Positions 1 through 20,719 are shown, counted from the first letter of the stretch. The stretch is 40,314 nt of DNA from Cytophagales bacterium (GCA_019456305.1 VRUD01000037.1:1-40314); one strand, 5' to 3'. Program-made: numbers and translations. Notes: generated by a model from the letters alone, not told the origin.

Positions 1-77
1 TCCTATGCTGATGAGTAAATTTATAATTTTTAGAAGTAATTTTATTAGTTTATAAATTTAATCGGACAACAGTGATT
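1..77. repeat. Left copy of 77-bp terminal inverted repeat
   Basis: Bases 1-77 are the exact reverse complement of bases 40238-40314, and the match stops at 78/40237. The inner edge on this side reads ATCGGACAACAGTGATT. The methyltransferase stop codon (76-78) overlaps the edge. The likely meaning is that both contig ends enter the same longer repeat, for example an insertion sequence present in both orientations. Exactly 77 bases is also a common de Bruijn k-mer size, so an assembly-graph cause is probable. Confidence 0.95.
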
Positions 78-936
78 AATTATATTTAATCTTGAACCAA
101 AATGATCCTCCATGCTTTTCTACTTTAGCCAAATTTTCATGCTCCCAAACAGGTTCAAGTATTTTATTTAATTTACTGTCTTGACTGATAAAATAATTAG
201 GTAATATAATTTCAAATTTTTCTTCATTGGCCAAAAGATAGCAGGCAAGTAAATATTGCTCGGAATAAAATCTATCTGCCATAAATTGAGGATAGTCATA
301 AGGCAAGTAAATATCATGCAGATGTACGATTACTCCTTTATTTAATTTTGGCAGCACTTCCAGAAAAAAAACCGTTACATCTGAATTTGGTAAAGCCCGG
401 TGTGAATTATCAATAAATAGAATATCGTTTTCTTGTAATTCATAAATAAATGAGAAATCAGTTTGTTCAAAGGGTTGCCGAATGGTTTTGTAGCACAACT
501 GATCAATTGAATTTCTTGGAAATGGGTCTACGGATATTATTCTTGTTTGGAGTTTATTGTCTTTGATTGATTTATAAGCAACTTTTGTTGAGGTTCCTGA
601 ACCAACTTCTACAAATAACTTTGGCTTAAAAAGGTGTATTAATCCATAAATACTTATAATATCCAATCCAGGCAAATAACCATTATTCCAGCATGGATTA
701 ATTTGATTTGTTTCTTTATCACAAGTTTTAATTGCAATAAACGTCTCTTTAAACTTTATAAAATGATTCAAGTAATTGGAATAGTGACTTCTATTTTTGG
801 TTACAATATTAAATAGTAAATCATGTGGTGGTTTCCCAAAACCATACCTAGGCACTAAATCAACTTTGTATTCGAGAAAAAGATTCTGAAACTTAGGAGA
901 TAAGAAGCGATAAATGTTTTTTATTTTTTCTTTCAT
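76..936 (-). CDS. Class I SAM-dependent methyltransferase (Methyltransf_24-like)
   Basis: This 286-residue protein looks like a cytoplasmic class I S-adenosylmethionine methyltransferase. Motif I is FVEVGSGTST (about 108-117), followed by the acidic end of strand 2 (SVDP, about 135-138), DILFIDNSH (about 171-179) and HLHDIYLPYDYP (about 205-216). The paired DNSH and HLHD motifs resemble the Methyltransf_24 family, which is often found in polysaccharide or surface-glycan loci. It is the last gene of a minus-strand run after the CotH and GT-C genes, 45 bp downstream of the latter. Its substrate cannot be read from the sequence; a glycan intermediate is an inference from context. The stop codon lies at the edge of the terminal repeat, but the protein looks complete. 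Confidence 0.8.
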   Translation of the reverse strand: MKEKIKNIYRFLSPKFQNLFLEYKVDLVPRYGFGKPPHDLLFNIVTKNRSHYSNYLNHFIKFKETFIAIKTCDKETNQINPCWNNGYLPGLDIISIYGLIHLFKPKLFVEVGSGTSTKVAYKSIKDNKLQTRIISVDPFPRNSIDQLCYKTIRQPFEQTDFSFIYELQENDILFIDNSHRALPNSDVTVFFLEVLPKLNKGVIVHLHDIYLPYDYPQFMADRFYSEQYLLACYLLANEEKFEIILPNYFISQDSKLNKILEPVWEHENLAKVEKHGGSFWFKIKYN

Positions 937-981: not shown

Positions 982-3303
982 TTAATTTTTGGAGATTAAA
1001 TAATTATCCATCACAAATGACCCATTTTTATCAATGTGATTGAAGACATGCACATCAAGTGGTTTTATTAAAAATTCATCAACCAGAATATGATCCCATA
1101 TTATTAAAAATTTTATTCGATTGTTTTTGTTATATAAAGTGAAGATATGATCTACCCTTACCCAATTCTTATATATTTCTGTGGAAAATTTTGGATTTAT
1201 ATCAACTTGTTCAATAATTTGATTATCTTGATTGTATTGAAAGTATTTCAATAAAGGAAATGCTGAAAATTGATTATCTGCATAAAACCATAAAGATGCG
1301 TTGAGGGTCATTGGGTCAAATTTACCCAATTGCTTCTCCTTATTTAATGGGATAGTCTGATTATAAATTTCTATCTCACCATTTTCCTTATAAAGCGCTC
1401 CGCTGCCAAATAAAGTATGATCAGCTTGTTTATCATCATAGTTTCTGATAATAATGGACTTTGTTTGCTGCAAACTCAAATAATTTTTACTTTTATAAAG
1501 AGAGTCTTTACAATTTTTAAAAAATAATCTGGTTTCAGCAAGTTTATCCTTGAAAGCGCCTAAAGGTAGCTTATATATGTTGACAATATCATTTTTATAA
1601 ATAAATTGGGAATTGCTAACCAGTTTATTTTCGGCTATATTTAACGTTTCATTTGTGGTGATGAGTAACAGGGGTTTATCACTTTTATAATCTTTTAAGA
1701 TGTCTTTTTTAATTAGATCACTGCTAATCAGTTGAGCTTGCTTTAAGCTTTGAGAGATCGATGTTCTGGACATAAATCCACTTACCATGGGCAAACCTGT
1801 ATTATAAGACGCTTTACATGCCTCAAACAAAGAACCCCCGCCTCTTTCAATATACAACTTTTCCGAGCCCATTTGAAAGTATGGCAGCGCCAGTATTGCC
1901 TGAAAATCATCAGGAAAATATCCTGTTTCTTTTAACCATGATGTATAATTATCATGCTTAGTTATAAAGCCACCGGCAGTTTTATATTGAATAATAAAGT
2001 CTCGTTTAACCTTTACGTTGATATATGCTTCCATCGACCATATGATTAACAACAACGAAATAATAGTGATGGCAAGACCTTTTAAACGTTTTATGACCAA
2101 AAATCTAAAAATCAAATAAAAATAAAAAGCGCTATAAACAGTAAAAACATAATAAAATATCCAGGAGAGTCGCCCTATACCCCTAAATTGTTTTATAACA
2201 GGAATGGAGTAATAGAATTCTTGTAAACCAAGTTTAAAAGGATATGCCATTGAAATGAGTAATATTAAGACTGATGCCCATAAGGTAGTTGACAAGGTAG
2301 CTGGCAGTACTGGCTTAAATATTTTATAATACTTTTTCGTTCTTATATATTTTATGATCTTTACAATTGAAAAAATAAGTGCTAACAAGCCTGCAAAACC
2401 CACATAGGCATATCCTTCCCACTGTGCTTTACTAACTTTTATAAAAGTATTCCAAACATCTAGAAAAGGACTATATACAGGTAAAAATACACTTTCAAAA
2501 GAGGCTATATAATGAAAAAAGCCATAAGGAACAACAATTCTATCATTGACGGGATCTGTTAAAAAGAAATAAATTCTTATTATTATAAAAGGAATAGCAG
2601 CAGAAATAATCCCTAAAATAATATACTTATAGCTAAGTTTATCTGTTTTATAATTTTGCAGGAAATAAACAAGTAGATAGATGATTATAAAAATACCACC
2701 AATCAGTGCATAATACATGGTAATAAAACTGAACAATGTGATAGTAAGTGATAACGACATTCCCCATAATATTGGTTTTTTTGAGTGAAAAAATTTGATT
2801 AACAGATACCAGATCAAAGGTACATACAACATATATGATAACCCATAATGACCGGAAAATCTGCTAAACTGGGGGGATAAAAATCCAATGATGATAGAGA
2901 CGATAAAAGCATACCACGTAGGTAAAAAATGGTATTTTAATATTTTAAATAATAATAATATACAGGGAAGAATAGAAAAAATAATGAAAGAATTGAATAT
3001 GCCTATAGTATAGTCAGAAATATTGAAAACATTTTTTTCTATCCAATTAAGTATAAAAGACAGAATAGGCTGTGTAGCGGCAAAAACCACATTCTCACCG
3101 TAAGGGTAATTCATCCCGGTAAAATGAGTGCCGCTATCATATTTAATATAATAAGCAGCAGTGTAATAATTCTTAATTCCATCTCCACCCACGTCAAATA
3201 GATATGAATTGGGGTGTATAACAATGTCTTTAAATAAAATCAGGATAAGAAACAGGGTTATTACTGTTAAAAGTATAAGAGGTTTTTTATCTGATACATT
3301 CAT
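982..3303 (-). CDS. GT-C-like polytopic membrane protein (YfhO-like)
   Basis: This 773-residue integral membrane protein has roughly a dozen hydrophobic segments in the first 440 residues and then a soluble C-terminal region of about 330 residues, probably periplasmic. The first extracytoplasmic loop carries D41-G-I-K-N-Y and MNYPYGE (about 64-70). Acidic residues in this loop are typical of GT-C glycosyltransferases, which use polyprenyl-phosphate sugars. The protein at 9035-10909 has the same two motifs at the same positions, so the two are paralogues. It lies 28 bp downstream of the CotH gene and probably shares its transcript. Transfer of a sugar to a surface polymer is an inference. A YfhO-like membrane protein of other function is the alternative. 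Confidence 0.65.
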   Translation of the reverse strand: MNVSDKKPLILLTVITLFLILILFKDIVIHPNSYLFDVGGDGIKNYYTAAYYIKYDSGTHFTGMNYPYGENVVFAATQPILSFILNWIEKNVFNISDYTIGIFNSFIIFSILPCILLLFKILKYHFLPTWYAFIVSIIIGFLSPQFSRFSGHYGLSYMLYVPLIWYLLIKFFHSKKPILWGMSLSLTITLFSFITMYYALIGGIFIIIYLLVYFLQNYKTDKLSYKYIILGIISAAIPFIIIRIYFFLTDPVNDRIVVPYGFFHYIASFESVFLPVYSPFLDVWNTFIKVSKAQWEGYAYVGFAGLLALIFSIVKIIKYIRTKKYYKIFKPVLPATLSTTLWASVLILLISMAYPFKLGLQEFYYSIPVIKQFRGIGRLSWIFYYVFTVYSAFYFYLIFRFLVIKRLKGLAITIISLLLIIWSMEAYINVKVKRDFIIQYKTAGGFITKHDNYTSWLKETGYFPDDFQAILALPYFQMGSEKLYIERGGGSLFEACKASYNTGLPMVSGFMSRTSISQSLKQAQLISSDLIKKDILKDYKSDKPLLLITTNETLNIAENKLVSNSQFIYKNDIVNIYKLPLGAFKDKLAETRLFFKNCKDSLYKSKNYLSLQQTKSIIIRNYDDKQADHTLFGSGALYKENGEIEIYNQTIPLNKEKQLGKFDPMTLNASLWFYADNQFSAFPLLKYFQYNQDNQIIEQVDINPKFSTEIYKNWVRVDHIFTLYNKNNRIKFLIIWDHILVDEFLIKPLDVHVFNHIDKNGSFVMDNYLISKN

Positions 3304-3331: not shown

Positions 3332-6292
3332 CTATTTATTCCCGGTAATTACTCTATCATCAATTTTTAATACGGAACCTTGCTCTATCGAATATAAACG
3401 TTTTATCCCCCTATACTTAAAATTATTAACAATAATCCTGGCACCACCATATTCAGGGTTTTGCTGATAAGCTACTAAACCCTGTTCACAGTCTGTTAAT
3501 TCAATATAATTAATATCAACTTCTGATAGATCTCTGGAAGAAATTGCGATTTTAGAATTTTTGATTGTTATATCAATCATTGCAACTTTAGCCTCCATAA
3601 CTGCGTTAACAGCATTTCCTTTTGTTTTTGTTATGTGACAGTTTTTGACCTGAACTACAGAACCTGAAAATTCAAAAGCATCTTTACCAATAACCTGAAA
3701 AAAAACATTTGTAATTTTTCCTTTGCAAAAATCTGCATCAAATGCATCACCGGTACAATTTGTGAAAACTGTATTTGAAATAGTGAAATTTGAACGAATG
3801 ATATTCAGGGCATCTTCAGCATGAATATCACTGATTTTGCAATCAGTTATTTCAACATCAGATTCATAAAAAGTAACAGCGCCGTCAAGTTTCCAGCCTC
3901 TGTAATTTAAGGCATTGATATTGTTAAAAATTACATGTTTTACAAAAGATTTTTTATCAGCCTGTAAAACAGTAAACCCTCCGTATGTACCATCACTTGA
4001 ACCAATTACAATAGGCTCTTCTTCATTTCCATACATATAAACAGGAGATTTTGATATAAACTTAGAATAATTTATAAAATCCAAATTACATCCTGCTAAA
4101 AACTTGACAGAATAATGTTCAGGAATGATTACGTTTTTTTCAACTTTATAATTACCAGGATAAAAAATAACCGTAGAGTCTTTAACCCGATAAATTTTAT
4201 TGCTTTTTAAACTCATTGTTTTAATAGAATGTAATAATTCCTGGGCAGATGTTGAAGGAATAGGTGCCGGCCATGGATTGATATTTACTGTATAGATAGA
4301 ATCTAATCCTAAAACTTTATAAAATATCGTATTTCCACTTCCATTGATGTGCTGATCATAGAATTCAATAGGATTGTTCCTGTTATATGCAGGTAAGATT
4401 ATTTTTTTACTAAAATAGCTGGTAATCATATTATTACCGCCAATCCCCATTAATTCGATTGGCAAAGCGTGCGTACTTCCAATACATAATATCAATTTAT
4501 ACTTATTAGAATTTTGCAAATATACTTTCAAAGCTAGTTTTTCATATGGGATCAAATGATTTCTGATATTTGCGGCATTATTATAAAGAAAATTTTTATC
4601 ATACTTGTAATCTATAAATTCGGTTTGTAGCAAAAGTTCCCGTTTTATTAGATCCATTTCAATGTTAGAAAAAAAGTCATGCAGATACTCTTCGTTAGAA
4701 TATTTTTCAAGATAAGATATATATTTTTCAACAAACAGATAATCATGGAATATATTTATTAATATATTGCCAGCCTTCCAATCTCCAAATTTGTTGATCG
4801 CATAACCTATAAAAGGTCTGTGAATCCAGTCAAAAACACCCTCTGCCGAATAACCATCGAATCCTATTGGTTCTAATTTTTCTGTCACCGGATTAAAATA
4901 CATTCGTTGATTATGCCATATTATTGCATGAAAAGCTTTTGTTATATCTAAAATAGCATAATATCTTGCTAATTTGTCAATATCAAATATTTCTGAAGTT
5001 GTTTTTATTCCATATTTATACTGAAACATGAGGTTCTGAGCCTTCTTAAATTCATTTAATAATTTTTCAGATTTTATAACATTTTTTATTGAAAATGGTT
5101 TAATTTCTGAACCTTCAAAAGAGGCAATACCGGAATTGTTCCTATAATCTCTTACCCGGGTATCCCACAATCCACCTTCATCAAATTTAATAATTACACT
5201 TTCTTTCCTTCGTTGTCTTTGTAATAACTGGTTGGTAAAGTGTTCTTCATAAGCATATATGCCTAGATCCTTATTGTTAAGGTGTAATACTATAAAATCG
5301 TAGGTAGGTGTTAGAATATCTTCATATTCTAATAATTTATGAAAAACCCATTCGTCAATAAAGTGTCTTGTAAGTGGATTTTGGACAGAAAATTCCTTCA
5401 TTCTGTTCCATGCATAATTCTTTTTTGTTTTGATCCTGAATGACCATTTATTTTCTTTTAAATGATCAAGCCAATCTCCTTTTAATCGGGCAAAAGCAAG
5501 TATTTCATTATCATTATTATCTATTAATTTTACTTTAACAAAATCATCATTGTTTGTTACAAGAATTCCCTTCTTAAATGCCTCATGCCGTTTTGCTTTT
5601 AATTTATTTAATCCTTTGTCATCTATTTTAAGGGTCAAAATTTTAATTTCCCCAAAGCCTGATAGATTATTTGAAAATTCAGCCATTTTTGATAATTTAA
5701 TTATTTTTAAATCATCAAAATATGCCGGCCTATTATCAGGATTCCATACATAAAATTTTAATTCTTTATTATGTATGTTTCTGGGGATTATTACTTTGAT
5801 TTTTAGCAGTTCCCATCCTTCAAAGTTCTTCTTAATAGCTGTTTTATCCTGATGCCAGAGATTCCAATTACCTTGTGCTACAATTGTGCCAACATGATAC
5901 TCACTATATTTCCACACGCTTGCTTCATAAATCTCACCTTCATTTACATTTGATATTAAATAACCTAATGCAAATTGGTCTTCTTTATAAACTTTAGCTG
6001 AATATTTTCCTGATAATGCTTTTTCATCTGATTGAGTTTGTCCATTATAAAAAATATTATTTTTATTTTTGAAAAATTTTTTATTTTTTTTAACAATAAT
6101 ATTTTCTGCATCGCATAATACTTCGGTAAAATCAGTGCTCGCTCTAATTTTATTAAATAAAATCATCAAACTATAGGATGCGGCTGTTACGCCCAAAATC
6201 AGACCTGCTGTTATTAACCCTATTTTTTTATATTTGTGTTTTGATTTGGGTTTTCTTTTGGAAATGATCATAATTTTTGGATTTGGATGCAA
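3332..6292 (-). CDS. Membrane-anchored CotH-kinase family protein with C-terminal beta-helix
   Basis: This 986-residue protein begins with a basic stretch and one membrane segment (about 24-46), so most of it should lie outside the cytoplasmic membrane. Residues about 65-205 look like a jelly-roll carbohydrate-binding domain (WNLWHQD, FYVWNPDNRPAYFDDLKI). The CotH-type kinase core runs from about 215 to 640 and includes LKGDWLDHL (about 270), IIWHNQRMYFNP and PIGFDGY (about 478); that Asp is in the position of the DFG-like metal-binding Asp. Residues about 740-970 repeat short beta-strand units typical of a right-handed parallel beta-helix. CotH proteins are atypical kinases that phosphorylate secreted proteins. 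Met8 (position 6271) is an alternative start. The upstream gap to the divergent PLD gene is only 37 bp. Confidence 0.8.
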   Translation of the reverse strand: MHPNPKIMIISKRKPKSKHKYKKIGLITAGLILGVTAASYSLMILFNKIRASTDFTEVLCDAENIIVKKNKKFFKNKNNIFYNGQTQSDEKALSGKYSAKVYKEDQFALGYLISNVNEGEIYEASVWKYSEYHVGTIVAQGNWNLWHQDKTAIKKNFEGWELLKIKVIIPRNIHNKELKFYVWNPDNRPAYFDDLKIIKLSKMAEFSNNLSGFGEIKILTLKIDDKGLNKLKAKRHEAFKKGILVTNNDDFVKVKLIDNNDNEILAFARLKGDWLDHLKENKWSFRIKTKKNYAWNRMKEFSVQNPLTRHFIDEWVFHKLLEYEDILTPTYDFIVLHLNNKDLGIYAYEEHFTNQLLQRQRRKESVIIKFDEGGLWDTRVRDYRNNSGIASFEGSEIKPFSIKNVIKSEKLLNEFKKAQNLMFQYKYGIKTTSEIFDIDKLARYYAILDITKAFHAIIWHNQRMYFNPVTEKLEPIGFDGYSAEGVFDWIHRPFIGYAINKFGDWKAGNILINIFHDYLFVEKYISYLEKYSNEEYLHDFFSNIEMDLIKRELLLQTEFIDYKYDKNFLYNNAANIRNHLIPYEKLALKVYLQNSNKYKLILCIGSTHALPIELMGIGGNNMITSYFSKKIILPAYNRNNPIEFYDQHINGSGNTIFYKVLGLDSIYTVNINPWPAPIPSTSAQELLHSIKTMSLKSNKIYRVKDSTVIFYPGNYKVEKNVIIPEHYSVKFLAGCNLDFINYSKFISKSPVYMYGNEEEPIVIGSSDGTYGGFTVLQADKKSFVKHVIFNNINALNYRGWKLDGAVTFYESDVEITDCKISDIHAEDALNIIRSNFTISNTVFTNCTGDAFDADFCKGKITNVFFQVIGKDAFEFSGSVVQVKNCHITKTKGNAVNAVMEAKVAMIDITIKNSKIAISSRDLSEVDINYIELTDCEQGLVAYQQNPEYGGARIIVNNFKYRGIKRLYSIEQGSVLKIDDRVITGNK

Positions 6293-6329
6293 TTTAGTGT
6301 TTTTTAACCAATTTTAAAGAATATTAGAA

Positions 6330-9008
6330 ATGCGAAAAAATAAATCCCACAAAGCCCGAATGGGTTGTATAATTTTTATATTAATTGTATTTATGGCTTG
6401 TTCAGATGAAAATAAGGAAATTCAAATAATTTATAGTATCGAACAAACCAATATTATAACCAGCGGATTTGATATTAAATGGAAGACTGCGTTCAAAGGC
6501 ACTTCCAATTTAAAATACGGGATAACAAGATCATTAGAACTTGGTGAAATTAACCAGGAAAGAAAAACAAAATTACATTCAATATCTCTCAGTGGTTTGA
6601 AACAAGCAGAATTTTATTACGTCCAGGCCTATTCAGTATATGGATATGACACTGCTTTTTCAAATATAGGTTTGTATAGTACAGCTTCAAATTCCACTGG
6701 TAAAATTCGAATCTATTTCAATAAACCAGTAGATAATTCTATTTCTACAGGAGTAGATGCCGTTTATCTAGATCATACCTTTGCCGATACAATAATGGCG
6801 TACATAGATAAAGCAAAATCTACGCTGGACGTTTGTATGTTTGTCAGTGAAGTTGAATCAATTGTACAGTCTATCAATAGAGCATATGTTCGTGGAGTTA
6901 CGGTAAGATTTATTACGAGTGGTGATGGTCAAACAAATACTGCATTAAAGCATCTTAATGACAAAATACCACTTCTGAAGGGTAGTCCTAAGCAGTCAAT
7001 GCATAATAAATTTTTTATCATTGATGCTAAATCTACAAGTCATGCCTGGGTAATAACCAGTTCAGCAAATAACACTGAGCGTGGCTTAAATGACTGGCCA
7101 AATAATATGGTATTAATTCAGGATGAGGCCTTGGCAAAAGCCTATACTTGGGAATTTGAAGAAATGTGGGGTGGATCAGGAACTATGCCAGATAGTTCAA
7201 ATGCAAAATTTGGAGCTCAAAAAACAGATAATACACCTCATAGATTTATTATAGATGGTAAATTAATTGAGCTCTACTTTTCTCCCTCTGATTTTACAAA
7301 TTCGGCAATAGTGAATGCAATAAAAACTTCTGATTGTGACCTGGAATTTGCGTTAGCTATTTTCCAGGTACATAAAATAGCTGTTGAAGTAAAGAATGCA
7401 CATAAAAGAGGTGTAAATGTTAGAGGAATAATCGAATTAATAAAATCTACCAGCAGTGAATATCATTATCTACGCAATAATGGGGCTAATGTCTTAGAAC
7501 ACACTTTACCAGAAACCATGCATCAAAAATATGTTATAATAGATGCAACGCTGCCTGATTCTGATCCAATGGTAATTACTGGCTCTTACAATTGGTATCC
7601 AGTCAATACAGCAAATATTGATGATAACACACTGATTATTCATGATGCGTTTATAGCCAATATCTATTTACAAGAATTCTCAGCCCGATTTAAAGAGCTC
7701 CCTGAATACTTTAAAATCAGAGATATTGAACAAACTAAAATTAAAACTACGGGATTTGATATTAAATGGACAACTAATTTCAATAGCACGTCCAATATAA
7801 AATATGGTTTAACAAGATCATTAGAACTTGGTGAGATCAAATCCATAGAGCAAACCACATCACACACTGTCTCACTTAATAGTTTAGCGTCTGCAGAATT
7901 TTATTATATTCAAGTCTATTCAGTGTATGGAGATGATACCATTTTTTCAAAAGTAGGTTTGTATAGTACAGCTTCAAATTCCACTGGTAAAATTCGAATC
8001 TATTTCAATAAACCAGTAGATAATTCTATTTCTACAGGAGTAGATGCCGTTTATCTAGATCATACCTTTGCCGATACAATAATGGCGTACATAGATAAAG
8101 CAAAATCTACGCTGGACGTTTGTATGTTTGTCAGTGAAGTTGAATCAATTGTACAGTCTATCAATAGAGCATATGTTCGTGGAGTTACGGTAAGATTTAT
8201 TACGAGTGGTGATGGTCAAACAAATACTGCATTAAAGCATCTTAATGACAAAATACCACTTCTGAAGGGTAGTCCTAAGCAGTCAATGCATAATAAATTT
8301 TTTATCATTGATGCTAAATCTACAAATAATGCCTGGGTAATAACCAGTTCAGCAAATAACACTGATCGTGGCTTAAATGACTGGCCAAATAATATGGTAT
8401 TAATTCAGGATAAGGCTCTGGCAAAAGCCTATACTTGGGAATTTGAAGAAATGTGGGGTGGATCAGGAACTATACCAGATAGTTCAAATGCAAAGTTCGG
8501 AGCTCAAAAAACAGATAATACGCCTCATAAATTTATTGTTAATAATAAACTGGTAGAGCTATATTTTAATCCTTCAGATAGAACAAATAGAGCAATTATT
8601 AAGACAATATACACAGCAAATCAAGATCTTGAATTTGCTATGGCACAGTTTTGGGGGCATGATCTTGGTACAGCTATCAAGAATGTGCATAATAACGATG
8701 TGAATGTTAAAGGAATAGTGGATGTAGTAAAATATTCTACCAGCGAAGATCATTATCTACGTAATCTTGGAATTAATATTTTAAGCCACACTTTGCCTGC
8801 AGTTATGCATCACAAATATGCAATTATTGATGCAAATGCTCCTGATTCAGACCCAATTGTAATAACAGGATCATATAATTGGCATTTGAATAATATAAAA
8901 ATTGATGATAACACCCTTATTATTCATGATCCTTCCATTGCAAATATTTATTTACAAGAATTTACTGCCAGATATAATGATGTGTTAAAATATAATTTTA
9001 CCCATTAG
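6330..9008 (+). CDS. Surface lipoprotein with two tandem phospholipase-D domains
   Basis: The 892-residue product starts with a lipoprotein signal peptide (FMAC, Cys24) followed by SDENKE, an acidic tail like the Bacteroidota surface-export signal. It is a tandem duplication of about 429 residues. Each half has a fibronectin-III-like domain (about 35-125 and 460-555) and then a two-lobed PLD domain. Four HxKx4D motifs are visible, at His225, His398, His654 and His827. The second and fourth are followed by GSYNW, while the first and third have SSAN in place of the usual GSxN. Such enzymes hydrolyse or transfer phosphodiesters, including phospholipids, nucleic acids and teichoic-type polymers; the substrate here is unknown. 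It is the only plus-strand gene among minus-strand neighbours. Confidence 0.85.
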   Translation: MRKNKSHKARMGCIIFILIVFMACSDENKEIQIIYSIEQTNIITSGFDIKWKTAFKGTSNLKYGITRSLELGEINQERKTKLHSISLSGLKQAEFYYVQAYSVYGYDTAFSNIGLYSTASNSTGKIRIYFNKPVDNSISTGVDAVYLDHTFADTIMAYIDKAKSTLDVCMFVSEVESIVQSINRAYVRGVTVRFITSGDGQTNTALKHLNDKIPLLKGSPKQSMHNKFFIIDAKSTSHAWVITSSANNTERGLNDWPNNMVLIQDEALAKAYTWEFEEMWGGSGTMPDSSNAKFGAQKTDNTPHRFIIDGKLIELYFSPSDFTNSAIVNAIKTSDCDLEFALAIFQVHKIAVEVKNAHKRGVNVRGIIELIKSTSSEYHYLRNNGANVLEHTLPETMHQKYVIIDATLPDSDPMVITGSYNWYPVNTANIDDNTLIIHDAFIANIYLQEFSARFKELPEYFKIRDIEQTKIKTTGFDIKWTTNFNSTSNIKYGLTRSLELGEIKSIEQTTSHTVSLNSLASAEFYYIQVYSVYGDDTIFSKVGLYSTASNSTGKIRIYFNKPVDNSISTGVDAVYLDHTFADTIMAYIDKAKSTLDVCMFVSEVESIVQSINRAYVRGVTVRFITSGDGQTNTALKHLNDKIPLLKGSPKQSMHNKFFIIDAKSTNNAWVITSSANNTDRGLNDWPNNMVLIQDKALAKAYTWEFEEMWGGSGTIPDSSNAKFGAQKTDNTPHKFIVNNKLVELYFNPSDRTNRAIIKTIYTANQDLEFAMAQFWGHDLGTAIKNVHNNDVNVKGIVDVVKYSTSEDHYLRNLGINILSHTLPAVMHHKYAIIDANAPDSDPIVITGSYNWHLNNIKIDDNTLIIHDPSIANIYLQEFTARYNDVLKYNFTH
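6667..7038 (+). repeat. 372-bp exact direct repeat, copy 1
   Basis: This segment inside the PLD lipoprotein gene appears identical, base for base, to 7954-8325 (offset 1287 bp, or 429 codons). It covers the end of the first Fn3-like domain and the first HKD lobe. Sequence outside it in the two halves is clearly more diverged. Confidence 0.9.
7954..8325 (+). repeat. 372-bp exact direct repeat, copy 2
   Basis: Second copy of the 372-bp block at 6667-7038. High similarity continues for about another 200 bp with a few substitutions, then falls off. The gradient points to recent homogenisation of part of an older duplication. Confidence 0.9.
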
Positions 9009-9034
9009 TTAAATAAAATATTTTAATAAGGGAT

Positions 9035-10909
9035 TCAATGTTTCTTCCATTTTGATACATCAAAATGATATAAATATAATACATCTTTGTATTCAGATAA
9101 TAACTCCATATTGTATTTTTCAATGATGTCAGCAGTTTTATAAACCAGTTCTTTACTATGCGGATATTGGCTTTTTTTAAATTTCTCTATAATTTCATTG
9201 TGTATTTTCTTATCGTATAACACTAAAATTGGTTTATCGGATAAGAGCTTCGAAAGATCCTTAGGAAAATCCTCTTCTATAAAGAGTTCAAAAAATTCCT
9301 TTACTTGATATTCAGCAGTTCGGGACATCTTGCTTGACATTAATGGTAAATTACTCATCAGGCTTAATTGCATGGTTTGTGTACAGAACGATTCAATCGG
9401 ATCTATTGTATAGTCATAATTTTCTGAACCAACATGATAATAAGGAATGGGTAAAATTGCCTGATATTTTGAAAAATCAACCTTATTTGTCAATGACTTC
9501 ATTTCTTCTATATATGATTCATTTGTTAAATAATTTTCATACTTTTTCTTTTTAAAAACAGTAATCATATCATATGTATCTATAATAGAACAAATTATCA
9601 GTCCAAAAACTATAGTTTTTAACCACATCGATTTATTATGTCTTAAATAGTAATCTATGATAAAAGCAACACAGAAATTAAACCCCCAGAAAAAAAACCA
9701 GTTAAATCTACCTAAACATCGAAACTGTGTAACTGAATCTGTTATTTTATGTAAATAATAAAACGGTGTTAAATAATTAGTTATTCTGTAAGAGTTGTTA
9801 AATATATAGATTTTTTCTCCAAAAGCAATTAAAAGAGAAACCAGTGCTGATGCTAATAATAAGAGGATAAAGAATCCTTTATCTGAATCGAAAATTTTCT
9901 TAAAAGAAAGGAACCATTTTCTTTTAAATATATAAGTAATAATAAGAATCAAGGTTGCTATTAAGGCAAAATTACCTAAAAATGCATGGGATTCGTAAGG
10001 GATACCATTTACATATTCGATTGGAAATTTTATCACATTATGGTCATAAGAAGTAAATAGTGCAGGAAAAGTTAATGACCACGTATCCCAATCATATCCT
10101 CCAACAATTGTTCTCCTGAAATCATAAAATTTGTCGATTAGTTTAATAATGAAAACAGGAATAAGAGAAAATATGATTATAAAAGAGAAATAATTTAATA
10201 ATTTAGGATATCTTTTGGTTTTAATGAATTCATAAATTGTCCAGAAAAAGAAAAAACTAAAAATTAGTATCAATAATAGTCCGATATAATAAAGATGAAT
10301 GAAAGTGAATATTATTACTGAGAAAATTATTAATATAGAATTTATGATACAACTTTTAATATTATTTTCATTATAGCTATTGTAAAATCTTAACAATAAG
10401 TAGGTTATTAGTAAAAAAGTAAAAGAAAATGATAAGTTAAAATGTCCAACATTCAATCGTATAATTTGTGGACATAACCAAGGTAAAATTAAACTAAGCG
10501 GATAAATTAAAATTTTCGAATTTAAAATGTATGAAAGAATTTTATAAACAAAAAACGTACTAATTAATATGTTTATAATACAAAAAAAATTGTAAATTTC
10601 AAAACTATAGGAAGTAACATCAAATATATAGTTTGAAAACAGTTTAACAAAGATTGCTAAGATAGGATTGTTGCCTGCGTAAAATAAATAATCCCCATAA
10701 GGATAATTCATATTTTTAAAAATAAATATACCTTCATTAAAGTTTTGTTTTAAATAAGAAATAAAGGTGAAATAATTTTTTATACCATCGTAATAGTTTA
10801 CAAACAATAAATCTTTGAATAATATATTTTTAAAGGCAAATAGAAGTAGGCAGGATTGAATAATTATTATTAATAAAATTGCAAGCCGTTGATTGGAATA
10901 AACTTTCAT
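9035..10909 (-). CDS. GT-C-like polytopic membrane protein, paralogue of 982-3303
   Basis: This 624-residue membrane protein has about a dozen hydrophobic segments. Near the N-terminus it has DGIKNY (41-46) and MNYPYG (about 67-72), the same motifs and spacing as the 773-residue protein at 982-3303. Further shared features are SENYDYTI versus SEKLYIE and LPLMSSKMSRT versus LPMVSGFMSRT in the C-terminal region. It is therefore a true paralogue, with a shorter extracytoplasmic tail. It lies 31 bp downstream of the VTC-domain gene and is probably co-transcribed with it. A role in transferring sugars from a lipid carrier is inferred from the GT-C-like layout. The product is very rich in Ile, Phe, Lys and Asn. 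Confidence 0.65.
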   Translation of the reverse strand: MKVYSNQRLAILLIIIIQSCLLLFAFKNILFKDLLFVNYYDGIKNYFTFISYLKQNFNEGIFIFKNMNYPYGDYLFYAGNNPILAIFVKLFSNYIFDVTSYSFEIYNFFCIINILISTFFVYKILSYILNSKILIYPLSLILPWLCPQIIRLNVGHFNLSFSFTFLLITYLLLRFYNSYNENNIKSCIINSILIIFSVIIFTFIHLYYIGLLLILIFSFFFFWTIYEFIKTKRYPKLLNYFSFIIIFSLIPVFIIKLIDKFYDFRRTIVGGYDWDTWSLTFPALFTSYDHNVIKFPIEYVNGIPYESHAFLGNFALIATLILIITYIFKRKWFLSFKKIFDSDKGFFILLLLASALVSLLIAFGEKIYIFNNSYRITNYLTPFYYLHKITDSVTQFRCLGRFNWFFFWGFNFCVAFIIDYYLRHNKSMWLKTIVFGLIICSIIDTYDMITVFKKKKYENYLTNESYIEEMKSLTNKVDFSKYQAILPIPYYHVGSENYDYTIDPIESFCTQTMQLSLMSNLPLMSSKMSRTAEYQVKEFFELFIEEDFPKDLSKLLSDKPILVLYDKKIHNEIIEKFKKSQYPHSKELVYKTADIIEKYNMELLSEYKDVLYLYHFDVSKWKKH

Positions 10910-10940
10910 GGTTGTTAAACTATGGATACCTTTTAAAAAT

Positions 10941-11573
10941 TTAATAATACCTCATCCCCCCCCCCACATACTTCGAACTCTTCCCCATCCTAAACGCCAT
11001 ATTCTGCGATACATAATCCCAATCCTTATCAAATTGAGCGTCATATTTTATCTCAACAATAGTTGTATTTTCTTTAGCAGGATTACTCAAAAAAGCCGGA
11101 TAACTGTCCATAACATAGTATTTCAGGTCTCTATCCAGCGTTAATCTGTATTTTTTATCCATAGAAATAAAATAAGAGCGCAGATACTGTATGAGTACCA
11201 CAGGGTGTAATGGAATTATGGTATTCACATTTTTCTTCACATATTCCTGAAGACTTTTCCCATTCAACAGCTTAAAATCCGGCAGCTTTTTATATTCTTT
11301 TTTACCCAATTGGTTTATTTTGATTTTCTTTTCTAATTGTGGATTTTTAGCAACTTTTATATCTTCACCATACCACCTGATCCTGTGTTTAACTCTTTGG
11401 GAAATACCGGCCAAATTATCTCTTAAAGCATCCATGTTATGCGTATCAAGATATATGCTGTTCACATACCTGTCCGGATACGTAGTGATAAAGGAGGCGG
11501 GGTGGAGTTTGATAGCGTTTAAAACCTCAAAGTACGAGGCATCTTCTATTTTATATTTTCTTTCGTAGCGCAA
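10941..11573 (-). CDS. VTC-domain (polyphosphate polymerase-like) protein
   Basis: This 210-residue soluble protein has the hallmarks of the VTC/polyphosphate polymerase domain, a triphosphate-tunnel fold that in yeast Vtc4 makes polyphosphate from ATP. They are RYERKY at the N-terminus, NSIYLDT, the basic strand RVKHRIRWYG, LEKKIK, RSYFISMDKKYRLTLDRD, VEIKYD and SKYVGGG at the C-terminus. The start appears to be TTG (11571-11573): an in-frame stop lies five codons upstream, and the conserved domain begins at once. It is followed after 31 bp by the GT-C-like gene. CotH, DUF4956 and small membrane protein genes lie nearby. Whether it makes polyphosphate or uses another acceptor cannot be told from sequence. 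Confidence 0.85.
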   Translation of the reverse strand: MRYERKYKIEDASYFEVLNAIKLHPASFITTYPDRYVNSIYLDTHNMDALRDNLAGISQRVKHRIRWYGEDIKVAKNPQLEKKIKINQLGKKEYKKLPDFKLLNGKSLQEYVKKNVNTIIPLHPVVLIQYLRSYFISMDKKYRLTLDRDLKYYVMDSYPAFLSNPAKENTTIVEIKYDAQFDKDWDYVSQNMAFRMGKSSKYVGGGMRYY

Positions 11574-11593
11574 TTCAATAGTAACTCAATAGT

Positions 11594-11640
11594 AATTCGG
11601 TTGTAATTCAATGGTAATTCAACCGAATTACAACTGAATT
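11594..11640. repeat. AT-rich imperfect inverted repeat upstream of VTC gene
   Basis: AATTCGGTTGTAATTC (11594-11609) is matched by GAATTACAACTGAATT (11625-11640), a 16-bp stem with one G-T pair, and TAATTC is repeated between the arms. It sits just upstream of the TTG start and could fold in the transcript. Confidence 0.6.
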
Positions 11641-11693
11641 AGGCATCTTTAAAATCATGAGTTAATAATACTAAAATGATCCCCATAATACCT

Positions 11694-11738
11694 GCCCCCC
11701 TAAGTCCCCCCGAGTACTCGGGGGGGATTTAGGGGGGC
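11694..11738. repeat. GC-rich palindromic element with CCCGAGTACTCGGG core
   Basis: A near-perfect palindrome of about 45 bp built as GCCCCCCTAAGTCCCCCC, GAGTACTC, then the mirrored arm with one extra G. The core CCCGAGTACTCGGG (11709-11722) recurs exactly at 21926, 22724 and 31588. The arm GGATTTAGGGGGGCTT recurs inside the ABC transporter gene near 17391-17406. Confidence 0.85.
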
Positions 11739-11818
11739 TTCAAGAATAATAAGAATGATCTCAAAAGTGGTCATAACTATATTTTTATTCTGTCTATTAA
11801 ATTACCAGAAATAGAAAA

Positions 11819-11914
11819 TTATACATCCTTAAGATTATCAGTTGTTAAAGCCCAAATGATACCGACTATACCAATGACGGTGAGTATACTAAGTGTAATA
11901 ATCAAATAAATCAT
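11819..11914 (-). CDS. 31-residue single-pass membrane peptide
   Basis: A short reading frame whose ATG (11912-11914) overlaps the TGA of the upstream 92-residue gene as ATGA, the classic arrangement for coupled translation. The product is about 31 residues, almost all hydrophobic (MIYLIITLSILTVIGIVGII and so on) with an acidic end (TDNLKDV), as expected for a small membrane peptide. No family is recognised. The coupling and composition support it, but its length makes it uncertain. Confidence 0.45.
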   Translation of the reverse strand: MIYLIITLSILTVIGIVGIIWALTTDNLKDV

Positions 11915-12189
11915 GATTCGAACTTTTTTCTGTCTATTAAATTTCCAAATATATAAAATATGATTGTAACAACAAAACCCCAAATAACTATCAAAAAGTT
12001 AAATTCTTCTGGTTTTGTTATTGGTCCAATAATAAATAATGCAAAATTTATCTTAGCAATATCATAACAAAACTTAGCATTATTATCTTTCTGCTCTTTC
12101 GTTTTAATAAGCTTAATGCTTTTTAATTTGTTTATTATTCTTTTTAATCTCTTAATCATTTTCACATTAATAATTAATCGAAACTCCAA
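11911..12189 (-). CDS. Small two-helix membrane protein
   Basis: This 92-residue protein has a Lys-rich cytoplasmic start (MIKRLKRIINKLKSIKLIK) and then two hydrophobic segments (about 47-58 and 66-83) separated by TKPEEFN, ending in DRKKFES. Met11 is an alternative start. It resembles the small uncharacterised two-helix proteins common in Bacteroidota; no function is assigned. It lies between the DUF4956 and VTC genes on the same strand, and its stop overlaps the start of a 31-residue hydrophobic peptide. It may be an accessory subunit of the locus, but that rests on position alone. Confidence 0.6.
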   Translation of the reverse strand: MEFRLIINVKMIKRLKRIINKLKSIKLIKTKEQKDNNAKFCYDIAKINFALFIIGPITKPEEFNFLIVIWGFVVTIIFYIFGNLIDRKKFES

Positions 12190-12203
12190 GCTTTATACTA
12201 TGA

Positions 12204-12250
12204 GAGCATAGTGCAGAGAGGTGAACCCCGCCTGTGGCGGGGCTATGCTC
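12204..12250 (-). terminator. Compound hairpin after DUF4956 gene
   Basis: GAGCATAG (12204-12211) pairs with CTATGCTC (12243-12250) around an inner CCCCGCC-TGT-GGCGGGG hairpin (12226-12242). It lies just after the DUF4956 stop and before the 92-residue gene. There is no clear T run, so it may be a terminator, an attenuator or only a repeat insertion. The inner hairpin belongs to a family also seen at 19844 and 29729. Confidence 0.5.
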
Positions 12251-12267
12251 TTTACGCTATGCGCCTA

Positions 12268-12948
12268 TCACACCGCCAAATTCCTCTGCTCAACAAACGA
12301 AAAGTTCAAATCAGACGATAGATCTCTGAGCTTATCTTTTGCCTCGGTGATCTTATCAAGTGAATCTGTTTCAATGATAAAGGAAAGTTCAAGCCTGTTG
12401 TCTATTTGATCCATTCTTTTTAGTTCAACCAGGGTAAATAGAGAAGTAAGGATATCTGTTATAGGTTTTACGTCTGTTTTGCTTGTAGAAATATTAATAA
12501 ACATATTATCAGGTGTGGAAGCTCTTTTCTTTCTCTTTATCATGGCCTGGATAAAAAGAAGAGCAAGAATAACAATAAATGCCAGAATAGTGATAATAGC
12601 CTGGTTTGCCCCCATCCCTAAGCCAACCCCGATGCATAAAAATAAGAAAGCCAGCTCTTCAGGTTCCTTGATAGCGGAACGAAACCTCACGATTGATAAT
12701 GCACCTACTAAACCAAGCGACAAAGCAATGGAGGATTTAACGATATAGATGATAAGCATTGTCGTTAATGCAAGCAGCATGAAGTTATTTGCAAACTGTT
12801 TACGATTGGAGATTGTGTTGCCATACCTTGTGTAAAAAAGAGATAAAATGTAGGTCAATAAGGCTGTAATGAACAAATTGAATAAGAACTGCTCGTGATT
12901 AATGGCATCAGCAGAAAATTCATTTACAAAGTCTTCAAATCTAAACAT
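12268..12948 (-). CDS. DUF4956 family membrane protein
   Basis: This 226-residue protein has four hydrophobic segments in its first 135 residues and a soluble C-terminal domain of about 80 residues. The diagnostic DUF4956 stretch is GLVGALSIVRFRSAIKEPEE followed by LAFLFLCIGVGLGMGANQ. The C-terminal part (LFTLVELKRMDQIDNRLELS and on) alternates strands and helices like a small regulatory sensor domain, probably cytoplasmic. The function is unknown. In annotated genomes DUF4956 genes commonly sit beside VTC-domain genes, often with CotH, as here. A possible role in moving or sensing the VTC product across the membrane is inference. A TAATTTTG motif ends only 5 bases before the ATG, hinting at a very short or absent leader. 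Confidence 0.85.
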   Translation of the reverse strand: MFRFEDFVNEFSADAINHEQFLFNLFITALLTYILSLFYTRYGNTISNRKQFANNFMLLALTTMLIIYIVKSSIALSLGLVGALSIVRFRSAIKEPEELAFLFLCIGVGLGMGANQAIITILAFIVILALLFIQAMIKRKKRASTPDNMFINISTSKTDVKPITDILTSLFTLVELKRMDQIDNRLELSFIIETDSLDKITEAKDKLRDLSSDLNFSFVEQRNLAV

Positions 12949-13030
12949 AGTGGCAAAATTATATAATTTTAGACAATAAATTATATCTTTACGCTTAATT
13001 TTATAAAAATTTTGTCTGCAGGAGTTAATT

Positions 13031-13957
13031 ATGAAAAAGTTTTACAAAATTTTCACGTTAACCATTTTAGTAATTAATACTTGTACTGCTGATGAGGATC
13101 AAGGCGGCTATAATAAGATACGGCTGGAAAACGAATTCAAATTAAGTGTGCCCAACGATCTTGCTGAAAAAATATGGATTTATTTACAAGCTAATTATTG
13201 TAACGATTCTATTAAAAAGTTTTTGGGCCTGACATTCAGTACATCTTTTTCCGAAGAACATTTTATAGATACTTATTTTGACGATGAAAACAAAACGCTT
13301 TTAAATCAGTGGTGTGGTATCCGTTACAGACAAAGGTTCATGAATGGAATGTTAGGAAGTCAATTGATACAACTCAAGATTTCAACAGATAAAAGTAACA
13401 GCACAATCAGAAAAGAATTAAAATTCAGATATAACAGCAGAAAAAGTAAGAAAGACAAATTTTCAGAGCATCCATTTTTGAAATATATACACCGCACAGA
13501 TAGAGACGCTATTCAGAGATACCTGGTTAGCCTGGGTACCAATTCACAATCCCTTGCACCTTCTGTTTCTATTCAGCAAAACCGAAGAAGGGTTTATATT
13601 TCAGAAAAAGGGCAAGCATTAGTTACTATTACGCTTGATATCGTATCAAAAAAAGTTTGGCCAAAGCTATCATTCACAGAGATTGAGATCGAGCTTAACG
13701 AAATAAGATATACCTATGGTGATAAAAAACAAAGATCATGGATGCACAAAATAAATAACAAAATAAAAACCGGCATTATGAGAAAATTCCCGGACCTGGT
13801 GCAGGACCAAAAACCAAAATATAATAAGATTTGCGAACTTAAAGAAAATAATTTTATATCAAAATTAACCGATAAGCTTATCTGGATTGTATTTTCCAGC
13901 TTAATATTAACAGCAGTATTATTGTTTATTAGAAATGGTAGAAGGAGAGGAAAATAA
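13031..13957 (+). CDS. Apparently exported CYTH/VTC-like triphosphate-tunnel protein with C-terminal anchor
   Basis: This 308-residue protein starts with a signal-peptide-like sequence (about 1-20, probable cleavage before DEDQ) and ends with one membrane segment (about 283-300) followed by RNGRRRGK, which should stay in the cytoplasm. The middle is a triphosphate-tunnel fold: the CYTH signature ExExK at Glu33, Glu35 and Lys37, then HFIDTYFDD, GIRYRQRF, LIQLKIS, RKELKFR, RRRVYI, LDIV and TEIEIEL. It is read divergently from DUF4956 and about 1.5 kb from the VTC gene. Most CYTH enzymes work in the cytoplasm on triphosphates or ATP, so a periplasmic location would be unusual. It could bind or cleave an exported polyphosphate or phosphorylated polymer, but activity is unproven. 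Confidence 0.75.
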   Translation: MKKFYKIFTLTILVINTCTADEDQGGYNKIRLENEFKLSVPNDLAEKIWIYLQANYCNDSIKKFLGLTFSTSFSEEHFIDTYFDDENKTLLNQWCGIRYRQRFMNGMLGSQLIQLKISTDKSNSTIRKELKFRYNSRKSKKDKFSEHPFLKYIHRTDRDAIQRYLVSLGTNSQSLAPSVSIQQNRRRVYISEKGQALVTITLDIVSKKVWPKLSFTEIEIELNEIRYTYGDKKQRSWMHKINNKIKTGIMRKFPDLVQDQKPKYNKICELKENNFISKLTDKLIWIVFSSLILTAVLLFIRNGRRRGK

Positions 13958-14755: not shown

Positions 14756-15658
14756 TTAGTTTGTTAAAGTTTTTCGTATAGATTCAGTTTCAGACGCAAT
14801 TTCAGCAATTAATTCCTCAGTAATAATTATTGTACTTGTGCTGTGATCCTCTACAATGAGCATATTATCAATCTCTTTAAAAGTAGGCGGCTCATAAGTA
14901 TATTTTACCTCTACTTGTTCAAAAAGTCTTTTGAGGTTGTCCAAATCGCTCCTTAATTTTTGAATATTATGATCATTTTGATAAACACTCAATAGTATCA
15001 TGATCTGATCAAGAGTAACTTTTTGCTCTCCTATTCTTTCTGATAGTTCCTTGTGCCATCCCTCCTCTGTATTTAATTTATCAATTTGTGCTGCTATATG
15101 CAATGCTTCCAACCAACCACCTGTAAGCATCAAAATAGTAAGGCTGCTGCGATTTTGTTCGCGCAGATAACGATACATGTCCTCAAAATTGGAGGTGGTA
15201 ATATATAATAATGAATCCAGGTTACCCCCCAAATTAGTGAGTCGTTGTAAGGTTTCAAAATTAAAATAATGACCAACTCTTATATCATCGGCAAGCTCTT
15301 TAACAGAATTCAAATACAGCAGTGCATCCTGATTTTGTTCATATAAATTAATATATCCCAGATCTGCACCATATATACCCAGGTTAATGGCTTTTTTGAA
15401 GTTTGTATTGTAATTTTTAATGTTTTCTGTTGGGTTCAATATATTTTTAGAATAATTGGCGCCAATACCCTGAATAAGGGAGGTCATTTCTAATGGCGAG
15501 GGTATTGATTGTATCACCTCCTCTACAAGATCCGGTGAGATATCAGGAACCTTTTCAAAGCTGAGCGAATCATCTTCAAGCAGATCATTTTCATTGTTTG
15601 TTTCTGAAGTACAACCAATCAGAAACAATACCAGCATAGTTATAATAAAATTTTTCAT
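14756..15658 (-). CDS. Lipoprotein of unknown function, paralogue B
   Basis: This 300-residue product has a clear lipobox (LIGC, Cys16) followed by an acidic, Asn-rich stretch, suggesting outer-membrane and possibly surface location. The mature protein is mainly helical, with conserved blocks such as EMTSLIQGIGANYSKNILNP, NFKKAINLGIYGADLGYINL and SNFEDMYRYLREQNRSS. It is closely similar to the neighbour at 15780-16685, so the two arose by tandem duplication. No characterised family is recognised. A TATATTTG element lies about 40 bp upstream, so it may have its own promoter besides read-through from the ABC transporter gene. The context suggests a partner of that transporter, but this is inference. 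Confidence 0.75.
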   Translation of the reverse strand: MKNFIITMLVLFLIGCTSETNNENDLLEDDSLSFEKVPDISPDLVEEVIQSIPSPLEMTSLIQGIGANYSKNILNPTENIKNYNTNFKKAINLGIYGADLGYINLYEQNQDALLYLNSVKELADDIRVGHYFNFETLQRLTNLGGNLDSLLYITTSNFEDMYRYLREQNRSSLTILMLTGGWLEALHIAAQIDKLNTEEGWHKELSERIGEQKVTLDQIMILLSVYQNDHNIQKLRSDLDNLKRLFEQVEVKYTYEPPTFKEIDNMLIVEDHSTSTIIITEELIAEIASETESIRKTLTN

Positions 15659-15696
15659 TTCTAAATATTTTTATACGGCTAATATTAATTACGGGG

Positions 15697-15704
15697 CAAA
15701 TATA
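15697..15704 (-). promoter_or_regulatory. Promoter -7 element for lipoprotein B
   Basis: On the minus strand this reads TATATTTG, the Bacteroidota -7 consensus TAnnTTTG, about 38 bp before the ATG of the lipoprotein at 14756-15658. No clear -33 TTTG is seen; ATTG occurs at about the right distance. Confidence 0.45.
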
Positions 15705-15734
15705 TTTTATTAAGAATTAAAAAACAATTTTTTT

Positions 15735-15763
15735 ATAAACTTTTTTTTAAAAAAAAAGTTTAT
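15735..15763. terminator. A/T hairpin between the two lipoprotein genes
   Basis: ATAAAC, a run of eight T, a run of nine A and GTTTAT form a self-complementary 29-bp stretch just after the stop of paralogue A (minus strand). It could act as a weak terminator in either direction. Confidence 0.45.
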
Positions 15764-15779
15764 TGACCAATTTCCTGAT

Positions 15780-16685
15780 TTAGTTTGTCAAATTTCTACG
15801 AATAGATTCAACTTCAACTGCAATTTCAGAAAGTAATTCCTGAGTAATAATTATTGTACTTGAGCTATGATCCTCTACAATTAACATACCATCAATCTCT
15901 TTAAAAGTTGGCGCTTCATAAGTATATTCTATCTCTACCTGTTTGTAAAGTTTTTTAAGATTTTCAAGATTGTTCCTCAATTTTTGAATATTATGATCAT
16001 TTTTATAAACACCCAACACAATCATGATCTGGGCAAGCGTTACTTTTTGCTCACCTATTCTTTCTGATAGCTGCTTATGCCCTTGCTCATCTATATTGAG
16101 TTTATCAATTTGCGCTGCTATATGCAATGCTTCCAGCCAACTGCCTGTAAGTATTGAAATAGTGATACTGCTGCGATTTTGTTCACGCAAAGAATGATAC
16201 ATATCTTCAAAATTAGAGGTGGTAATATATAATAATGAATCCAGATTCCCACCCATAGTTGTGAGTTGTTTTAAGGTCTTAAAATCAAGATAATGACCAA
16301 CTCTCAGATCATCGGCAAGCTCTTTAACACAATTCAAATACAGCAGTGCATCCTGGTTTTGTTCATATAGATTAATATATCCCAAATCTGCGCCATAGAT
16401 ACCCAGGTTGATAGCTTTTTTAAAATTCGTATTATAATTTTTAATATTTTCTGTTGGGTTCAATATATTTTTAGAATAGTTGGCGCCAAGACCCTGAATA
16501 AGGGAGGTCATTTCTAAAGGAGGCGGTATCGATTCAATCACCATTTCTACCTGATCAGGTAATATTTCAATGACTTGTCGGAAGATCAGCGAAGAGTCTT
16601 GGTCAAAATCGTGTTGATTATTTGTTGTATCAGCGTTACAACCAATCAAAAATAAAAGTACGAAGGATACAGTAATATTTTTCAT
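15780..16685 (-). CDS. Lipoprotein of unknown function, paralogue A
   Basis: This 301-residue lipoprotein (lipobox LIGC, Cys16, then an acidic Asn- and Asp-rich tail) is the tandem paralogue of 14756-15658, with long identical blocks such as SLIQG-GANYSKNILNPTENI and NFKKAINLGIYGADLGYINL. I chose the ATG at 16683-16685 (MKNITVSF) because it matches the paralogue start and because a longer start at 16706 would run into a 20-bp-stem hairpin (16701-16747). It lies directly downstream of the ABC transporter gene. The family is unrecognised; it is probably a helical outer-membrane lipoprotein. Two diverged copies suggest two non-identical partners or dosage. Confidence 0.75.
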   Translation of the reverse strand: MKNITVSFVLLFLIGCNADTTNNQHDFDQDSSLIFRQVIEILPDQVEMVIESIPPPLEMTSLIQGLGANYSKNILNPTENIKNYNTNFKKAINLGIYGADLGYINLYEQNQDALLYLNCVKELADDLRVGHYLDFKTLKQLTTMGGNLDSLLYITTSNFEDMYHSLREQNRSSITISILTGSWLEALHIAAQIDKLNIDEQGHKQLSERIGEQKVTLAQIMIVLGVYKNDHNIQKLRNNLENLKKLYKQVEIEYTYEAPTFKEIDGMLIVEDHSSSTIIITQELLSEIAVEVESIRRNLTN

Positions 16686-16700
16686 ATATAAATAATTTAT

Positions 16701-16747
16701 GGGCATCTCTAAAAACTACACCATACATGTAGTTTTTAGAGATGCCC
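16701..16747 (-). terminator. Perfect 20-bp stem hairpin after ABC transporter gene
   Basis: GGGCATCTCTAAAAACTACA (16701-16720) and its exact complement (16728-16747) enclose a 7-base loop. It lies between the ABC transporter stop and the lipoprotein start. The 3' side on the minus strand is A/T-rich (ATAAATTATTTAT) but lacks a pure T run, so it may attenuate rather than stop transcription. Confidence 0.6.
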
Positions 16748-20217: not shown

Positions 20218-20592
20218 TTAGTACGTTTTATAGGTAAATGGAATTTCTATCAATTCTGCAAACTCTTCACCTGCTTCCTGCATATCTTCATCGTCCGATT
20301 GGGAATACCATATCACCGTGGCCTGTGTGCCATTATCATGAAGATCTTCAAGCTTGGTAAGCAGGTCTAAAATTAGTTTGGAAGAGGATGTATTAAAGTA
20401 TTCTAATTTAAAAATAATGTTTGTTTTAGTATTAGGTTTTTTACTATAACTATCAAGCCAGTCCAGCGCAGTTTGATAAAATTCTGCTGCATCTTCCGGC
20501 AGAGACCTTCCTGATAATTCCAAAATACCGCTATCGGCATTAAATATTATTGCAGGAGTATCTTCTGTAAGGTCAAGTTTTAAATCTTCCAT
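20218..20592 (-). CDS. siaC: SiaC-family regulatory phosphoprotein (DUF1987)
   Basis: This 124-residue cytoplasmic protein belongs to the SiaC/DUF1987 family: an anti-sigma-antagonist-like fold with PAIIFNADSGILELSGRSLP at the N-terminus and FKLEYFNTSSSKLILDLL in the centre. Thr68 lies in YFNTSSSK and corresponds to the phosphorylated Thr68 reported for Pseudomonas aeruginosa SiaC. There SiaB phosphorylates SiaC, SiaA dephosphorylates it, and unphosphorylated SiaC activates the cyclase SiaD. Here three SiaB-like kinases lie upstream and no SiaA or SiaD is visible. The gene has its own strong promoter-like sequence (20612-20642) and is followed by an ABC transporter, which may be the output. 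Confidence 0.9.
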   Translation of the reverse strand: MEDLKLDLTEDTPAIIFNADSGILELSGRSLPEDAAEFYQTALDWLDSYSKKPNTKTNIIFKLEYFNTSSSKLILDLLTKLEDLHDNGTQATVIWYSQSDDEDMQEAGEEFAELIEIPFTYKTY

Positions 20593-20611
20593 ATGTTAAT
20601 AAAGTGAATTG

Positions 20612-20642: not shown

Positions 20643-20719
20643 TAAAAAATAAAGAATTAAACACTAAAAAATAGTTAGATCGTATTTTTCATTTGAATTA
20701 TTAGTATCGGGCATTTATA

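Follow-up and report, generated by a model that had tools for sequence, protein, structure and literature searches.

The 40,314-nucleotide stretch analysed here (the window) is an entire contig of the 4.2 Mb genome of a Cytophagales bacterium (GCA_019456305.1, VRUD01000037.1:1-40314). It encodes a protein of the CotH fold together with a VTC-domain polyphosphate-polymerase-like protein, a DUF4956 membrane protein and an exported protein of the CYTH (triphosphate tunnel) family. We tentatively read this locus as a second, divergent CotH/VTC/DUF4956 envelope module, whose role would most likely be accessory: the modification of an envelope polysaccharide, by addition of phosphate or in another way. 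The reading is based on the conservation of the triad, the intact VTC tunnel, the carbohydrate-binding and beta-helix domains of the CotH-fold protein, the gene context of one related locus (L110), a precedent in Pel operons, and the association of the exported CYTH protein with the module. That the target is a cell-surface polymer, as an initial annotation of this DNA had proposed, is likely.

Linkage of the CotH, VTC and DUF4956 genes

Forty neighbourhoods were picked from CotH-family matches irrespective of VTC, and their genes were scored with home-built profiles; the relatives sampled all came from taxonomic families other than that of the source genome. Of the 40 loci, 14 contained VTC together with DUF4956 and none contained just one of them, whereas a simple rate estimate predicts about 0.2 CotH-family loci with VTC. 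The triad loci come from genomes of six other taxonomic families (six of about 20 hold the triad). Because six of the 14 belong to one genus the loci are not independent, but the spread over families is still far from chance. The linkage is thus beyond chance, and the survey of relatives suggested in the initial annotation gave a core neighbourhood that is not random. When loci were centred on VTC, it was paired with DUF4956 in 25 of 26.

By BLAST, the window VTC shares 35-45% identity with its counterparts in 13 of the 14 triads, against no more than 27% with other VTCs. The same division is seen for DUF4956, where identities to these 13 triads are 41-52% and to others at most 33% by BLAST, or 40-52% and at most 28% overall in the alignment. 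In the fourteenth triad (L139), both proteins are of the canonical subtype. A canonical locus is also present elsewhere in the source genome, on contig C45 (L004), with two CotHs, VTC, DUF4956 and DUF2490. The window contains the same kinds of protein as this canonical Bacteroidota locus, but the C45 CotHs give strong PF08757 matches and have the catalytic Asp, whereas the window VTC and DUF4956 are divergent and DUF2490 is absent. The L110 triad has MBOAT, O-antigen ligase, canonical CotH and GT4 genes as neighbours.

The first point to make about novelty is that this set of genes has been reported before. CotH, a polyphosphate polymerase and DUF4956 are encoded together as accessory genes in Gram-positive Pel operons, in which a regulatory role was suggested for CotH (PMC7112168), and a locus of Clostridium perfringens contains both VTC and CotH genes (PMC2879425). 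To call the system undescribed, as was done initially, is thus too strong for its core. The window resembles the Pel accessory genes in bringing together the same three kinds of protein, and polysaccharide genes lie nearby in several relatives. It differs in the CotH, which carries a carbohydrate-binding domain and an AlgG-like beta-helix as fused parts and is without the catalytic Asp, and in the presence of the exported CYTH protein. Pfam named no Pel gene in those window proteins that were scanned, and no Pel-specific profile was run. The new parts are the beta-helix-fused CotH with His in place of the Asp (His-type) and the exported CYTH; we found no description in the literature of a His-type CotH with a beta-helix.

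Judged by its residues, the window VTC has an intact tunnel and active site. Residues K6, R64, R66, K83, R132, R143, E174, K176 and K201 are invariant in 12 VTCs of the window subtype. The VTC profile matched yeast Vtc4, and the Vtc4 tunnel residues (the catalytic ones being, we assume, those of the published Vtc4 structure) all have counterparts in the window protein, which has both the basic tunnel residues and the acidic metal site that mark a VTC domain. With these residues kept, the description as a polyphosphate-polymerase-like protein holds. The triphosphate tunnel domain and its catalytic residues are shared with Vtc4 of the eukaryotic VTC complex; in contrast to that complex, the window protein is a VTC domain alone, with DUF4956 as the membrane partner. 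VTC was present in 164 of 340 class genomes.

DUF4956 has 4-5 membrane helices followed by a C-terminal ACT/ferredoxin-like domain (AlphaFold mean predicted local distance difference test, pLDDT, 87), and G79, R88, R90 and F103 are invariant across 34 sequences. Both the PF16316 match and the conserved linkage agree with its initial description as the usual partner of VTC. Foldseek matched the C-terminal domain to ACT-like domains, 2lqj (MgtC) among them, and found nothing significant for the membrane part. MgtC likewise combines membrane helices with an ACT-like C-terminal domain, but the membrane part of DUF4956 is unmatched, and comparison with the MgtC sequence profile (PF02308) was not significant (E 0.21), only the C-terminal ACT-like part being matched structurally. 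MgtC is possibly a distant relative at most, and no paper linking the two was found in the literature.

Fold and active site of the CotH protein

Since the window protein itself gave no CotH match in Pfam or NCBIfam, its identity was established through its family and its structure. PF08757 is matched by 35 of 39 family members, the family profile aligned with canonical CotHs in hhalign (P 99.0, E 8e-18), and Bacillus CotH in the PDB was matched by the same profile with an E of 1.4e-6. The AlphaFold model (mean pLDDT 89.9, predicted template modelling score 0.71) had 5jd9, the Bacillus CotH, as its top-ranked Foldseek match (E 2e-10). Comparison of residues 215-611 with Bacillus CotH (5jd9/5jda) by VIA gave a Z of 26.4 and a root-mean-square deviation (rmsd) of 3.5 over 325 aligned positions. 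Both the profiles and the model clearly place the predicted protein in the CotH fold family.

The CotH domain (residues about 215-585) is preceded by a membrane helix within 18-50 and a carbohydrate-binding domain (about 57-200), and followed by a beta-sandwich (about 588-670) and an AlgG/AlgE-like right-handed beta-helix (about 682-986). Carbohydrate-binding modules match weakly in Foldseek, and three family members match CBM_4_9. The beta-helix (681-986) aligned by VIA with the alginate epimerase AlgG (4ozz; Z 27.1, rmsd 2.9, 272 aligned), with many other beta-helix polysaccharide enzymes scoring close behind. The catalytic motif of the alginate epimerases AlgG and AlgE, which we take to be of the DPH type, was not evident in the window CotH, as judged from the sequence. 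Queried against 59 genomes of the order, the protein matched its own genome only, relatives appearing only in the class sample: 76 of 345 class genomes have matches to some part of it, many to the N-terminal carbohydrate-binding region alone, and the closest near full-length relative is 43% identical.

Two other proteins of the window (24471-28096), which carry PKD domains and C-terminal signals for type IX secretion, match the canonical CotH profile weakly, probably through the shared type IX tail.

Profile-profile alignment pairs His455 of the window protein with D228, the catalytic Asp in canonical CotHs. A separate alignment to 5jd9 puts the His one position earlier, and there is no conserved Asp at that place there either. 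The second catalytic Asp (D251) is kept as Asp479, its equivalent being Glu in one subgroup of relatives, and R269, K271, G272, S284 and E349 are strongly conserved in the family. Canonical CotHs keep the Asp, including those found beside the His-type subfamily in L108, L110, L111 and L126. CotH variants D228Q and D251A are inactive (PMC7821199). The window protein thus shares the fold of the Bacillus CotH kinase (5jd9/5jda) but differs from it in this residue, in its extra domains and in its membrane anchor. Of the initial description as an extracytoplasmic atypical kinase, the fold stands, on the family, profile and structural matches, while the catalytic Asp does not; active-site substitution in VTC and CotH, named in the initial annotation as grounds for refuting its proposal, is found at this position in CotH and nowhere in VTC.

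The exported CYTH protein and a possible route for phosphate

The CYTH and DUF4956 open reading frames are divergent and 82 bases apart. The CYTH protein has a likely signal sequence at its N-terminus and a membrane anchor at its C-terminus. Its tunnel residues (E33-x-E35-x-K37, R98/R100, K116, R127/E129, D203 and E217/E219/E221) are common to the window and L139 proteins and conserved in a four-member family alignment, in which a single member departs from the motif, with R replacing the Lys and D the first Glu. Three relatives were found among the 340 class genomes, and a profile scan of the genome contigs with the CYTH alignment gave a single locus, which to judge by its length is on the L139 contig. 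In L139 the relative is clustered with genes for VTC, DUF4956 and a CotH-family protein. Neither of the other two is next to VTC, yet their genomes hold VTC and the CotH family, so that all four CYTH-carrying genomes have both. The probability of finding the CotH family in 3 of 3 genomes with such a relative is about 0.01 given its sample frequency, a figure limited by small numbers and shared ancestry. An association with the module beyond chance is suggestive. The initial proposal that a second triphosphate-tunnel protein is exported agrees with the tunnel residues, the signal sequence, the membrane anchor and this independent association.

A route for phosphate can be sketched from these features. 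VTC, with its intact tunnel, would act at the inner face of the membrane and convert ATP there to polyphosphate or to a related chain of phosphates. DUF4956, through its membrane helices and two invariant arginines, may hold VTC at the membrane and pass the product across. On the periplasmic side, the CotH-fold protein would bind polysaccharide by means of two domains, the carbohydrate-binding one and the AlgG-like beta-helix, and transfer or use the phosphate there, whilst the exported CYTH protein could trim excess chains.

Several observations weigh against an envelope-polysaccharide module of this kind. PPK1 is also encoded in the source genome, so VTC is not required for ordinary polyphosphate. 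The genes checked beside the triad in L100-L102 (f70 genomes) are not polysaccharide genes, and the CYTH link depends on four genomes, in two of which CYTH and VTC are unlinked. In addition, His stands at the D228-equivalent in 98% of 43 family members, which makes phosphotransfer by the known mechanism doubtful for this subfamily. As a result of this last point, a second reading has to be considered possible, at a somewhat lower probability: that the His-type CotH is a pseudokinase, a polysaccharide-binding or -processing scaffold whose fold binds ligand without phosphorylating, with any catalysis residing in the beta-helix. The replacement of the D251-equivalent in a subgroup points the same way, as does the match of the beta-helix to polysaccharide epimerases and lyases, and kinase activity could belong to the Asp-bearing canonical CotHs which adjoin in four of the loci. 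However, so high a conservation of the residue suggests function rather than decay, Asp479 is kept, the five other residues are strongly conserved, and no canonical CotH was found nearby in L100-L102.

The route also bears on the phosphoryl donor. It is conceivable, if unlikely, that exported polyphosphate rather than ATP, which is scarce outside the cell, serves an extracytoplasmic CotH-type enzyme, with VTC and DUF4956 as the supply line. The pairing of VTC with DUF4956 in all 14 triads, and in all but one of the VTC-centred loci, is consistent with this, as are the membrane anchor and the large, presumably periplasmic, part of the window CotH. The source of ATP for CotH phosphorylation of Bacillus subtilis coat proteins has been called unanswered (PMC7821199). 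In contrast, B. subtilis CotH uses ATP in vitro (PMC7821199), transport by DUF4956 is putative, and the CotH may be without a classical catalytic residue. No paper found in the literature names polyphosphate as a CotH donor. Less probable still is a fuller scheme in which the His-type CotH, with its polysaccharide-processing beta-helix, would use polyphosphate exported by VTC/DUF4956, not ATP, to phosphorylate envelope polysaccharide outside the cytoplasm, the exported CYTH protein recycling the chains.

Neighbouring genes and significance of the locus

The genes of the locus are collected in Table 1. All the open reading frames named in the initial annotation were found at the positions it gave, and its VTC, DUF4956, CYTH, PLD and methyltransferase identities are each supported by a Pfam match. 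Its extent of 3332-13957 covers them apart from the second GT-C-like gene and the methyltransferase gene, which lie outside.

Table 1. Genes in and around the CotH/VTC/DUF4956 locus, in window coordinates
Feature	Position	Strand	Remarks
Methyltransf_24 protein	76..936	-	PF13578, E 5.4e-12; final gene before contig end
Second polytopic membrane protein (GT-C-like by topology only)	982..3303	-	28 bases downstream of CotH gene
Membrane-anchored CotH-fold protein, 986 aa	3332..6292	-	
PLD-like lipoprotein, two tandem two-HKD halves	6330..9008	+	PF13091 (PLDc_2), 4 stretches, E 3.7e-71
Polytopic membrane protein (GT-C-like by topology only)	9035..10909	-	31 bases downstream of VTC
VTC-domain polyphosphate-polymerase-like protein, 210 aa, TTG start	10941..11573	-	PF09359, E 2.7e-21
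Small DUF6722 protein, 92 aa	11911..12189	-	PF20482, E 1.9e-7; candidate module member at most
DUF4956 membrane protein, 226 aa	12268..12948	-	PF16316, E 1.3e-15
Exported CYTH (triphosphate tunnel) protein	13031..13957	+	PF01928, E 5.6e-5, barely above cut-off

The remaining neighbours had been joined with the triad into one system. The least probable of the readings is that VTC, DUF4956, CotH, CYTH, PLD, GT-C and methyltransferase proteins jointly make, attach and cut a phosphate polymer. Short gaps between genes do suggest two co-directional units, one with DUF4956, DUF6722, VTC and a GT-C-like gene, the other with CotH, a GT-C-like gene and the methyltransferase. However, homologues of the PLD, GT-C-like and methyltransferase proteins occurred in none of the 40 CotH-family loci, and those of the first two in none of the 26 VTC-centred loci. 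They are not conserved partners of the module, with no evidence for partnership beyond chance, and the single-system proposal is not supported in this part.

As the PLD gene runs in the opposite direction, the locus is not a single transcription unit. Its product, initially described as a surface lipoprotein with two full PLD domains, does match PLDc_2, but is better described as an internal tandem duplication with four HKD motifs, two per half. The halves are 84% identical in DNA and 77% in protein, and the DNA identity suggests that the duplication is fairly recent. A paralogue lies on contig C22 of the source genome, and the PLD lipoprotein is probably a bystander.

The two GT-C-like proteins are similar to each other, as initially noted, and polytopic by hydropathy, but neither has a match in Pfam or NCBIfam and the GT-C label is thus without profile support. 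A 69% identical paralogue of the one behind VTC is on contig C89, beside glycosyltransferase-like genes and without VTC or CotH, and a search of the phylum found relatives which also lack VTC or CotH nearby, several of them amid glycosyltransferase-like genes. In L110, the O-antigen ligase gene is between VTC and the CotH gene. The GT-C-like genes follow VTC and CotH at short distance and in the same orientation, and by analogy a membrane enzyme of sugar transfer placed here may be a functional parallel to that ligase.

Other features of the window were also seen. Two tandem paralogous lipoprotein-like genes (14756-16706; 300 and 308 aa) include one that was scanned, with no Pfam match. They are followed by a large fusion of a TerB-like region, an ABC ATPase and an ABC2 membrane domain (16754-20149). 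At 20218-22507, a SiaC-family phosphoprotein gene (PF09345) lies upstream of three mutually similar genes, of which the one scanned is DUF6272, an arrangement resembling a phospho-signalling cluster.

How enzymes outside the cytoplasm are supplied with high-energy phosphate is an open question, to which the CotH/VTC/DUF4956 linkage offers an answer; we found no published test of it. The changed conserved residue in the catalytic site of the CotH-fold protein, together with the polysaccharide-binding domains joined to it, points to a sugar polymer rather than a protein as the target, which can be assayed.

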